48,546 bases of DNA from contig JAIRYN010000001.1 in the NCBI GenBank assembly GCA_031267575.1, positions 1 to 48,546 on the forward strand. The letters run 5' to 3'. The number at the start of each line of letters is the position of its first letter. Positions within the stretch are counted from its first letter, which is position 1. Made by a program: the position numbers and the translations under genes. Below the pieces are notes generated by a model. The model was not told the DNA's origin and did not search any database. It was given only the letters and a program-made list of their open reading frames with translations. Below, piece after piece: positions 28,342 through 48,263 of this stretch. Origin of the DNA: Synergistaceae bacterium. Lineage in GTDB: Bacteria; Synergistota; Synergistia; Synergistales; Aminobacteriaceae.

Positions 28342-28381
28342 AAGTAGACATATGACAAGAAACCAAATACAAAACAAACGC
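28342..28381. repeat. 40-nt dispersed repeat, copy A (copy B at 43791-43830)
   Basis: 38 of 40 bases match 43791-43830 in the same orientation. In copy B the frame reads VDIWQEIKYKTN; here the Trp codon is TGA. It may be the start of a lost gene that inserted elements have interrupted. Confidence 0.85.
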
Positions 28382-28637
28382 CGCCATTGGCGGCGTTGCG
28401 GTTTTCATCCAATCTCAGCCAACGGCTAAGCCGTTGGCTTTCTCATCACTTTATTGTAAGCTGTCTTTATTTTAACAAAAATCATTTCGGAGATACAGAA
28501 GATCGAAGGCGTTTAAAGCGCCGATATGTCCAATAAAATTGTCTTTCAAGAGTTTAAACGTATTTTTATGACACGAAATTTGAGTTATGATTGCACGAGT
28601 GCTTTGAAGTAGTTTGAGGAACTTGCGAGGGAGTAAA

Positions 28638-44821: not shown

Positions 44822-44880
44822 CTAGACGCATGGTATCCCATCAAGTAAGGAACACATCACGAACCAGAACCAAGCACACT

Positions 44881-44956
44881 TTGACAACCAGAGGGTAGGC
44901 TCGAACCAGGGAATCGGGCCAGCGGGAGAAGGGACCGAACAGTCAAACACAAGAAA
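44881..44956 (+). repeat. 76-bp inverted repeat, left arm
   Basis: Reverse complement matches 46991-47066 at 71 of 76 positions with no gaps. The two arms face each other across about 2.03 kb. Each arm lies just upstream of an outward-reading toxin-antitoxin operon. It contains no coding frame that is conserved: four of the five differences would change an amino acid in the open frame. Confidence 0.93.
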
Positions 44957-45406
44957 CCCACGGGAAACGGCCAGCCAGAACAGCGGCGATGAAACTCAAT
45001 GACTCGCTAGAAGTTGTTTAGGGTATGCTCCATTGTTATAGCTGTATCCACCCGCTCAGGTATTTGATTCACCCCTTAGCCTTCGCGTGTTCCTCCTCCT
45101 AAAATAAGCGGGACCGAAGCCCCGCATCTCATGTCTTGGTTGTAACAGTCCGCTTCTGCAAGGAGAAAGATTGTGGTCGATTCTTTCGCACGTCTTTCAC
45201 ACTCGATAAAATACTTACGGGCGGCTTCCGGTATTTAACAAAATTGTTAAAAGGTCCCAAGTCCACTGAAACCCAGTATCCGCCCTTTTTCCGGAAAAAC
45301 GGAAAAAGTCTTCAACTCGTGCATTTTTTGCCCTAGTTCGAAAACGAAGACTATTCAACAATTTTGGTGAATAGAGTTGGCGACGGGGTTGGCAAACCCA
45401 GTATCT

Positions 45407-45436
45407 GACCTATTTCATAAATTTATGAAATAGGTC
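45407..45436. repeat. 30-nt perfect palindrome
   Basis: Left arm GACCTATTTCATAAA is the exact reverse complement of the right arm. It is the longest perfect palindrome of the hairpin array. Confidence 0.97.
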
Positions 45437-46286
45437 CATCACTCACCCCAATTTTGGGGTCAGCGTTTCTGAGGGCAAGGGCAAGTGGATTGGATTGGTT
45501 CCGACCCCGTGGCGCGTCCCGAAACAACTGAAACAAAACCTCCCCGTAACCTCCCCGTTGCGCGGGGTTCTTCCGAGCTGAGTGGGTCCTCATTTTGAGG
45601 TACCTGACTACCCCGACCGCGTGGATCGACGCGGGGCTCCTTTAGGCCCCCGTTTGCGAGCCTCCAAGACACCCGTTTAAATCCCAAGCAACCCAGAGGA
45701 CTGCACGAAATGGTGCAGTCAACCTTTGCTGTCGAATGTTCTACTCAGCTTCGAGTAAAACCACGTGGCGTGGATTTAAGGCGCTTCATGCGTGGGGCTC
45801 CCTTCTGTGGTTATCCCAATCTCCTCAAAGTTGAGGAGATTGCAGCCAGGCAAACACCCCCCACTCTTGACCTGATACGAAAATTTTTCGTACCAGTCTC
45901 TCTTTATGGCGCCCCCAAACGGAAACAGAAAATTCCGCGTGTCATCCTTTGTCATACTTTCCGTTGGTGAGGCTTGGTTAGAATGATCAAAAGTGATATT
46001 TTTGAGCCAGTTGAGGATTGTTCCACCAGGGGTGTAGATTTTTTCTACATCCTTTTCATCCCGACTTCATCCCGACTCAGCTCAATCTGCCATTTTAAAA
46101 GTTCATAGAGGTATAAATCTGTTTAGCCTCCCTTGTGCCTTCTCAGACACTCTAGAAGTGTCTAATCGCCAAAGAGGCATCAGTTCCTCCCAAAGATTTA
46201 AAACACGTTCTGAGGCGTTTTGGAACGTCGGTACGGCATTGTGGGCTGGATTACCTCAAGGGGTCCATACAGAGTGGAGACCTTTG

Positions 46287-46499
46287 TCAGATGGTCGAGT
46301 TCGGGGTCTGGTTATGTATTTGGTGAAGGTTGATCGAATATCGGGCCTCGTCCCTGAGTTGAGCCAACTTGTCAAGGTGGTTTTCGAGCGTGAGTTGTGA
46401 CGCTTCGATCACAGGCGCCCGGAGCTCAGCAATTCTTGCCGTAATCTTGCCGTCGTCCATCATCTCTTTTGCCTTACGGTTCACGGTCGCTGCTTTCAT
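46287..46499 (-). pseudogene. Phage terminase small subunit-like fragment
   Basis: The minus strand reads MKAATVNRKAKEMMDDGKITARI, AELRAPVIEASQLTLENHLDKLAQLRDEA. The VNRKAKEM...KI.ARI.ELR...LENHL.KL..LRDEA pattern is that of small terminase subunits (DNA-binding part) of tailed phages. The family then continues for another 80-100 residues, which are absent; the frame ends in an unrelated tail. There is no proper ribosome-binding site, and an aaaagcataaagg-type 13-nt duplication sits just upstream. This is prophage debris. Confidence 0.55.
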
Positions 46500-46990
46500 T
46501 CTTTATGCTTTTCCTTTATGCTTTTCGTGCGCTCGGCAAAGATTGCTTCGAGGTCCTCTGTTGGGGTAGAAATTGTCTGAATTGTCGTGCTCGATTTAAT
46601 CGAGCCTATACGCTATCTGATAAATTTATCAAATAGTTCCACAGACGCCACACTGGCCTCAAATTTGAGGTCAGCTGTCCAAAATTGGCTACCCAAAATT
46701 GGGGAGCGAAAACTTGAAAAGTTGTCTGAAAATTCTCGCCACGCCAACTTTGGATTGGCTGTTTTTTGTTGATGGGGCGTTTCCCGAATTTCGCTCCTGA
46801 AAAATCAGGAGCGAAAAATCGAGTTGGTAACGGTTGTCACGCTACCAAGCGCAATCTGTCGCAATCCACGCCACGTTGACTTCCACAGAGAACTCGCAAT
46901 GGGATAGGAGGACGCTCCAAAATTGGAGAGTCGAAAAAACTGGATCGGCTTCCACAGAAAGGAGGTGAATACGTTTCGACTCCTTTGGAC

Positions 46991-47066
46991 TTTCTTGTGT
47001 TTGACCGTTCGGTCCCTTATCCCGCTGACCCGATTCCCTGGTTTGTGCCTACCCTCTGGTTGTCAA
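46991..47066 (-). repeat. 76-bp inverted repeat, right arm
   Basis: Partner of 44881-44956 (71 of 76 match in reverse complement). It ends about 130 nt before the start of the XRE-type regulator. Confidence 0.93.
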
Positions 47067-47194
47067 GGTTCGTTTTTTATTTGTTATTTCTTATTTGCAA
47101 AATAGTATATTCCTTTTTGGCAAATCACAATAGACAAAAGTCCCTATTTTAATTTGTCAAAAATGAATTATCATAAGTTTAGGAGGTGGTTCAA

Positions 47195-47870: not shown

Positions 47871-48263
47871 ATGAAGCGACTCAAGATCTACCTCAATATG
47901 TCGGTAATCAGCCATCTGGACGCACCGGATGTGCCGGACAGAGAAGTCGATACGAAGCGACTCTGGGAGGAAATACGGAAGGGTACGTTTGAAGTGTTTA
48001 TTTAACCTGTGGTTATGGAGGAAATTGACGATTGCTCGGAGCCGAAATTGTCTTACCTCCAGGAGCAAATGGAGTTAATTGATTACGCACTTTTGGAAAA
48101 AACCGAGGAAGTCATAAAATTGGCGGAGCGATACGCGACAGAGGTATTGAAGAAAAAGAGTTTTGCCGCTTACGATAAAGCGATTCTCATCCAACGGCTG
48201 AAGCCGTTGGATGAGAATCGCTTTATCGTAACGCCTTTCACTGCAAATGCTTTGTCTGTTTGA
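47871..48263 (+). pseudogene. PIN-domain (VapC-like) protein, broken
   Basis: ATG with AAAGGAG upstream, reading MKRLKIYLNMSVISHLDAPD...LWEEIRKGTFEVFI, then TAA at 48003-48005. The same frame continues as PVVMEEIDDCSEPKLSYL, LIDYALLEKTEEVIKLAERY and LKKKS, which is the rest of a PIN-domain fold. A codon change such as TCA to TAA is the simplest explanation of the stop. The usual catalytic opening is YLDTSVISH; here it is YLNMSVISH, so the first acidic residue is also lost. The 3' end runs into a 62-nt palindrome that replaces the C-terminal catalytic region. Confidence 0.7.
48170..48231. repeat. 30-bp-arm perfect inverted repeat with 2-nt loop
   Basis: 48170-48199 is the exact reverse complement of 48202-48231, loop GA. 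The core CCAACGGCT/AGCCGTTGG is shared with the hairpin at 28417-28439. It lies inside the decayed PIN gene. Confidence 0.97.

Follow-up and report, generated by a model that had tools for sequence, protein, structure and literature searches.

A mixed array of palindromes in a phage-derived segment of a Synergistaceae genome and its kinship with coding palindromes of antirepressor-type genes

The DNA analysed here (the window) is a stretch of 48,546 nt that makes up positions 1 to 48,546 of contig JAIRYN010000001.1 from a Synergistaceae bacterium (assembly GCA_031267575.1). Close to its end, framed by a pair of inverted repeats and containing the remnant of a phage terminase gene, lies an array of short palindromes (45107-46928) with differing arms. 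Sequence comparisons show that several of these palindromes are homologous to palindromes located inside the coding sequences of antirepressor-type genes from other species. The gene matches over the central 18 nt, together with the frequent Rha-type centres, identify the array as mixed, its members being of the Rha, Bro-N and AntA types.

With loops of up to 8 nt allowed, the numbers of non-overlapping perfect palindromes in the region 45107-46928 are 16, 12 and 8 for minimum arm lengths of 6, 7 and 8 nt, respectively, where dinucleotide shuffles give 3.7, 1.0 and 0.3 (z = 6.9, 10.6 and 13.6; the standard deviation of the shuffled count for arms of at least 7 nt is 1.0). The hairpin count is thus well above that of shuffled sequence and the original observation is confirmed, but its figure of more than twenty palindromes requires the inclusion of short or imperfect sites. 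Tolerating one mismatch gives 20 sites (45007-46990). Other 1822-nt stretches of the window (up to 43500) have 0-5 palindromes each with arms of at least 7 nt. The density of the array is 6.6 per kb, compared with about 1.5 per kb in the other non-coding DNA of the same genome (about 300 kb sampled), which shows that the enrichment is local. The array had been described as having about one hairpin per 60-80 bases for 1.8 kb. The excess is real, but the palindromes fall into two clusters (45234-46163 and 46589-46932), separated by the terminase small-subunit remnant and a single degenerate Bro-N-like site, and the framing inverted repeats had gone unreported. The AAATTT and AAAATT centres pointed out at the time do exist: AAATTT and AATTTT, both frequent in the array, are the centres of Rha sites, which encode Asn-Phe there (AAT TTT). 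The individual sites are the following, with the strand given where one is assigned:

45184-45219, minus strand: AntA antirepressor fragment RKYFIECERRAK (tblastn E-value 0.001)
45234-45251: palindrome TTTAACAAAATTGTTAAA, arm 8, loop 2; no relative found
45285-45308: palindrome, arm 9, loop 6; no relative found
45343-45396, plus strand: AntA fragment NEDYSTILVNRVGDGVGK with an imperfect palindrome at 45351-45374 (tblastn E-value 2e-4)
45407-45436: perfect palindrome GACCTATTTCATAAATTTATGAAATAGGTC, arm 15, loop 0; resembles 46613-46639 at 85%, one pair showing a compensatory change from G-C to C-G
45445-45460: palindrome ACCCCAATTTTGGGGT, Rha-like centre by eye
45588-45600: short palindrome CCTCATTTTGAGG, Rha-like centre by eye
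45699-45720: palindrome, arm 8, loop 6; no relative found
45817-45842: perfect palindrome CAATCTCCTCAAAGTTGAGGAGATTG, Rha-type; central 18 nt identical to Rha gene L620 (genome G162; control maximum 14)
45872-45896: palindrome CTGATACGAAAATTTTTCGTACCAG, Bro-N type (ERLVRKIFVSGQ on the minus strand); central 18 nt identical to the intact Bro-N gene L041 (genome G022)
46022-46060, minus strand: Bro-N motif DEKDVEKIYTPGG with palindrome TGTAGATTTTTTCTACA at 46033-46049 (tblastn E-value 8e-4 to viral Bro-N genes)
46145-46163: palindrome, arm 7, loop 5; no relative found
46253-46288, minus strand: degenerate Bro-N-like motif DKGLHSVWTP*G with an imperfect palindrome (weak tblastn match, E-value 0.11)
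46589-46605: palindrome GCTCGATTTAATCGAGC, arm 8, loop 1; no relative found
46613-46636: palindrome CTATCTGATAAATTTATCAAATAG, 11 pairs, 1 mismatch
46653-46674: palindrome CTGGCCTCAAATTTGAGGTCAG, 10 pairs, 1 mismatch; 15/18 to a Rha locus
46679-46688: short palindrome CCAAAATTGG, from the sequence
46688-46707: palindrome GCTACCCAAAATTGGGGAGC, 8 pairs, 1 mismatch; 15/18 to Rha gene L623
46711-46723: short palindrome AACTTGAAAAGTT, from the sequence
46743-46759: short palindrome GCCAACTTTGGATTGGC, from the sequence
46789-46816: perfect palindrome TTTCGCTCCTGAAAAATCAGGAGCGAAA, Rha-type; 17/18 central nt to Rha gene L627 (genome G143; control maximum 15)
46824-46848: imperfect palindrome, 8 pairs, 1 mismatch, loop 7
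46904-46936, minus strand: Rha motif FRLSNFGASSY with palindrome GACGCTCCAAAATTGGAGAGTC at 46911-46932; 91% DNA identity over 32 nt to Rha gene L614 (genome G113)

A DNA search of 60 relatives returned three short matches in all, two of which lie on palindromes within genes: a Bro-N gene (L033/L041; EKLIRKIFVSGQ) matches 45868-45896, and an AntA gene (L032/L066) matches 45346-45392. The latter match has 85% DNA identity over 47 nt and, as read from the sequence, two pairs of the palindrome 45351-45374 are altered on both sides relative to L066. When the search was extended to the phylum, two more genes came up: another Bro-N gene (L613), and L614, a Rha gene (EFRLSNFGQSSY) that matches 46905-46936. 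When antirepressor proteins were compared with the region by tblastn, Bro-N matched at 45837-45902 (E-value 0.002) and Rha at 46904-46936 (10/11 residues, E-value 0.008). The central 18 nt of the window palindromes were also compared with 59 kb of antirepressor loci from the same order, using 450 scrambled palindromes as a control. The sites at 45817-45842 and 45872-45896 matched at 18/18 positions and the one at 46789-46816 at 17/18, while the scrambled controls never exceeded 16 (0/450). The Rha locus matched by the first of them has one stop in its reading frame; the second is identical to its Bro-N gene at 24/25 positions overall and also matches L613. Beyond the palindromes at 45817, 46789 and 46911, the Rha reading of window sites was made by eye and is not counted as established.

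The genome itself has one partial Rha-domain match (G000:C48:16679-16843, L631), and searches of it for Bro-N and AntA found none. Elsewhere, G143:C1:3151496-3162907 holds four Rha-domain matches within 11.5 kb (L627, L638, L640 and L641), of which three stop before the end of the profile, and is possibly another cluster of partial antirepressor genes.

These families share a trait of their coding sequences. Rha, Bro-N, DinD-type and RhuM genes have a long palindrome within the N-terminal coding region, and AntA has an imperfect one. Among genomes of the same family, perfect coding palindromes whose arms differ by gene reach 13-15 nt in DinD-type, up to 12 in Bro-N and 11 in RhuM genes. A best perfect arm of at least 9 nt occurs in 66% of the viral DinD-type homologues (n = 70), 50% of RhuM (n = 18) and 14% of Bro-N (n = 77), as opposed to 5%, 7% and 3% after shuffling synonymous codons within each gene. 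The palindrome occupies one homologous place per family: HFxEVxKM in the DinD-type, the residues after DEK in Bro-N, and F-x-x-x-NF in Rha. The dinD gene of E. coli K-12 (L068:2261-3085) has the coding palindrome GACCATTTCGAGGAGATCCTCGATATGGTC, with 13/14 complementary pairs. Rha genes with a palindrome include those of phages HK639, PVA1, BR52a, Pagassa, TRS1, Hayley and 118970_sal3; in the Rha genes of P22 and some others it is absent or weak. In PADLOC, the DinD-type and RhuM proteins correspond to the candidate defence families PDC-S13 (E-value 1e-117) and PDC-S05 (E-value 4e-143). No account of coding palindromes in antirepressor genes was found in the literature searched, which was covered in part.

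No second copy of the array turned up in DNA searches covering the genome that carries it and 188 genomes of the phylum; searches with the whole array found no match among plasmids, and among phages nothing beyond a short match in terminase small-subunit genes. Covariation was therefore studied at the homologous gene sites. At the three free pairs of the DinD-type site, Watson-Crick pairing occurs in 52, 45 and 54 of 60 distinct sites, compared with 26, 21 and 30 after the columns are re-dealt. The variable codons track this pairing (for instance, Arg goes with Thr, Val with Asn, Ala with Ser and Pro with Arg). Pairs also covary in Bro-N (z reaching 5-6) and in Rha (z up to 6.2). The controls used for the three families preserve column make-up but not relatedness. 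The early impression that the arms vary while remaining complementary is thus borne out across three gene families. Mismatches at DinD-type sites show no excess of G.T (19) over A.C (22), and this lack of strand bias indicates that the covarying unit is double-stranded DNA, unlike an RNA stem. The comparisons accordingly show the gene palindromes covarying as DNA.

This result bears on two explanations in the original prediction, a large structured RNA and repeated fold-back template switching during replication, which we now regard as most improbable. The many hairpins of the region and its predicted RNA folding, which beats shuffled sequences (z = -4.6 and -3.6, 20 shuffles each), speak for an RNA, but any set of hairpins would fold in this way. 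The array resembles large ornate RNAs such as GOLLD and ROOL in having many stem-loops within 1-2 kb; it differs from them in that an Rfam search of the window matched no known RNA family, and in consisting of DNA palindromes with protein-coding homologues, found in both orientations and with mismatches free of strand bias. As for template switching, an established mutational process corrects imperfect palindromes and could help to keep the arms complementary. It would nevertheless fail to account for the fixed position of the palindromes in gene families or for their identity with the genes of other species, and a genome-wide process of this kind was rejected because the remaining non-coding DNA is poor in palindromes. 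The third early suggestion, sites folding in DNA for a rolling-circle or recombinase mechanism, survives in part: a DNA site fits best, but nothing was found that points to rolling-circle replication or to a recombinase.

Within and around the array lie the following further features:

44878-44956, plus strand: left arm of a 79-nt inverted repeat that frames the array; 92% complementary to 46991-47069
45017-45173, plus strand: segment common to contig C70 of the same genome (L010; 94% over 157 nt)
46287-46502, minus strand: terminase small-subunit gene remnant without a palindrome of its own (PHROG terminase small subunit, E-value 5e-5)
46991-47069, minus strand: right arm of the 79-nt inverted repeat

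The C70 locus encodes a phage baseplate protein (PHROG baseplate wedge subunit), and the terminase remnant has 65% DNA identity over 187 columns to L008; a further terminase-like match of 26 nt at 45536-45561 may be due to chance. Close to its end, contig C9 of the same genome has a lone third copy of the 79-nt repeat (L011). No second full copy of the repeat-bounded segment, such as a transposon with terminal inverted repeats might have left, was found in the genome or in the 188 genomes of the phylum. An exact search of viral contigs with the inverted repeat gave one match, within a phage gene, judged to be chance.

The remnants in this segment could suggest another history, in which antirepressor genes were repeatedly inserted and decayed at one prophage site and the palindromes are passive leftovers of their coding sequences. 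The AntA pieces do reach past the palindrome, the Bro-N pieces include the DEK and PGG flanks, the terminase remnant lies inside the array and the reading frames are broken. Yet neutral decay should affect arms and flanks alike, whereas about 20 different sites are packed into 1.7 kb and several of them keep perfect arms in spite of having lost the coding sequence around them. We consider this history distinctly unlikely.

Some repeats of the window and its genome stand apart from these questions. Perfect tandem duplications within the array (45537-45558 and 46055-46077, 11 nt each, and 46501-46526, 13 nt) are a sign of slippage. Downstream, an open reading frame (ORF) contains a palindrome with 30-nt perfect arms and a 2-nt loop (48170-48231), of a type also found at 28377-28439, L016:9617-9678 and L028:13840-13890. 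Shorter versions of it adjoin AACGCCGCC..GGCGGCGTT palindromes elsewhere in the genome, and palindromes of this type look like a separate REP-like repeat family. Beside the lone repeat of contig C9 lies a candidate type-P5 twister ribozyme (L011:4052-4114; 36.3 bits for an Rfam gathering threshold of 37.6, E-value 2e-4).

The gene palindromes also occur without their gene. This was studied with the best-studied one, the DinD-type palindrome (CCATTTT..AAAATGG), using a single strict pattern and removing duplicates. It is present in phages and in many phyla, as an element of about 20-35 bp. Among the matches listed, 81 copies are free and 5 genic in viral contigs, compared with 24 free and 90 genic in cellular genomes (Fisher p = 1e-27), some of the cellular sites scored as free being probably gene copies missed by the filter. 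Likewise among the matches listed, 56/137 free copies are identical to a gene palindrome over 24 nt; this shows an exact sharing of arms, some of which is expected given the small alphabet of cores. The free copies sit behind stop codons (median distance 23 bp; 9 convergent and 1 divergent) or in unrelated ORFs. Two lie in frame, in a portal gene (L263:4101-4126) and a terminase large-subunit gene (L317:912-937). No empty sites were present among the loci first compared, and targeted searches (portal, terminase) turned up close relatives without the palindrome, which shows that it comes and goes as a whole. In one phage locus represented by eleven contigs (L251, L256, L269, L281, L282, L285, L292, L293, L304, L323 and L360), where a series of differing hairpins follow one another, divergence is 3.5% in the flanks but 19.7% in the core of the middle palindrome, about six times more. 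Small palindrome arrays also exist elsewhere.

One possibility is that these are neutral mobile palindromes, tiny selfish elements that land wherever they are tolerated, loops of antirepressor genes included, with the window as a hot spot and with arm complementarity kept by copying one arm from the other in hairpin form. Rickettsia palindromic elements, of about 150 bp, also lie in frame inside unrelated protein-coding genes (PMC10969869), as do the palindromes present in or absent from the portal and terminase genes; the elements studied here are unlike them in their small size, their hypervariable covarying arms, their residence in phage regulator genes and their spread over many phyla. REP sequences, associated with TnpA-REP, are palindromes of 20-50 nt, mostly intergenic and sometimes clustered (PMC8266576), and the extragenic DinD-type copies at gene ends, with their convergent bias, are reminiscent of them, as are the small arrays. 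Nevertheless, inspection revealed no conserved GTAG foot in the listed flanks of the free copies, no transposase was found, and the arms vary from copy to copy in place of one family per genome. Neutral mobility would also leave unexplained why one homologous spot is palindromic throughout the DinD-type, Rha and Bro-N genes, and why free and genic copies are distributed so differently between viruses and cells. On balance we find it unlikely.

Alternatively, the palindromes could be ordinary operators, bound by the antirepressor concerned or by the repressor it pairs with to control transcription, and the array a titration cluster. They are DNA-level palindromes in the genes of DNA-binding phage regulators, and one free copy lies directly upstream of a DinD-type gene (L098). 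Yet a gene's palindrome is not repeated nearby beyond expectation (0.597 of letters matched, 0.588 expected), neighbouring copies have different arms, and the free copies prefer the 3' over the 5' ends of genes, all of which makes regulation of this kind very doubtful.

The known system that comes closest is BstA with its aba element, in which a short element acting as DNA lies at the locus of a prophage-encoded protein, is specific to the cognate allele, and works in trans, so that a second phage bearing it is protected (Owen et al. 2021, PMC8585504). BstA has a KilA-N-like N-terminal domain, and the 63-bp aba extends across the bstA start and requires direct CCCGCC repeats (PMC8585504). The palindromes, too, are short DNA elements, but they lie in the genes of other protein families; their allele-specific arms and lack of strand bias are consistent with a cognate action as DNA. 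They are unlike aba in lying well inside the coding sequences of several families (Bro-N, AntA, DinD-type, RhuM and Rha) and in their design, which is palindromic and not one of terminal direct repeats. The PADLOC search gave no match to BstA itself. An allele-specific DNA site in the gene of a DNA-binding phage protein that also occurs free on phages resembles aba, and it is this resemblance that leads us to propose a self-tag.

The reading that we tentatively prefer, while giving it somewhat less than an even chance, is by analogy that the array consists of cognate DNA tags working like aba and gathered in one place. Each palindrome would be the recognition tag of one antirepressor-type protein, presumably bound by it. 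The tag within the protein's own gene would mark the DNA carrying it as self, and a free copy would be a borrowed tag, whose bearer benefits because the cognate protein either treats it as self or is titrated. The array would then combine tags of many specificities, some of them decayed by now, within a decayed phage-derived segment with inverted-repeat ends. More broadly, the data suggest that the palindromes act as DNA name-tags in conflicts between phages, rather than as RNA.

Several points weigh against this proposal. The longest perfect palindrome arm in aba is 4, and since aba is thus not palindromic the likeness is one of working and not of membership. The genome lacks the DinD-type palindrome on which the contrast between viruses and cells rests, so that this contrast extends to the window array by analogy only. 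Relatives were found for only about half of the window sites. PADLOC gave no clear defence match for Rha, Bro-N or AntA. Not all array sites are perfect palindromes, and part of the array may be dead. The array was found in one copy only, so that the covariation seen is that of gene sites and not of the array itself, and the roles in binding, defence and immunity are ones that we infer from sequences.

A more ambitious version of the cognate-tag proposal, which we regard as somewhat unlikely, would make the locus a phage-derived tag library of about 20 cognate palindromes, each for a different antirepressor- or defence-type gene, so that many allelic proteins would treat the DNA bearing it as self. 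More generally, several antirepressor families would encode a hypervariable tag in their own coding sequence, and phages would accumulate these tags as a means of anti-defence. Rha, Bro-N, DinD-type, RhuM and AntA genes are common and poorly understood in phages and defence islands. If true, this scenario would explain the variable stretch of their proteins, make the recognition target testable and extend the logic of BstA and aba to large families.
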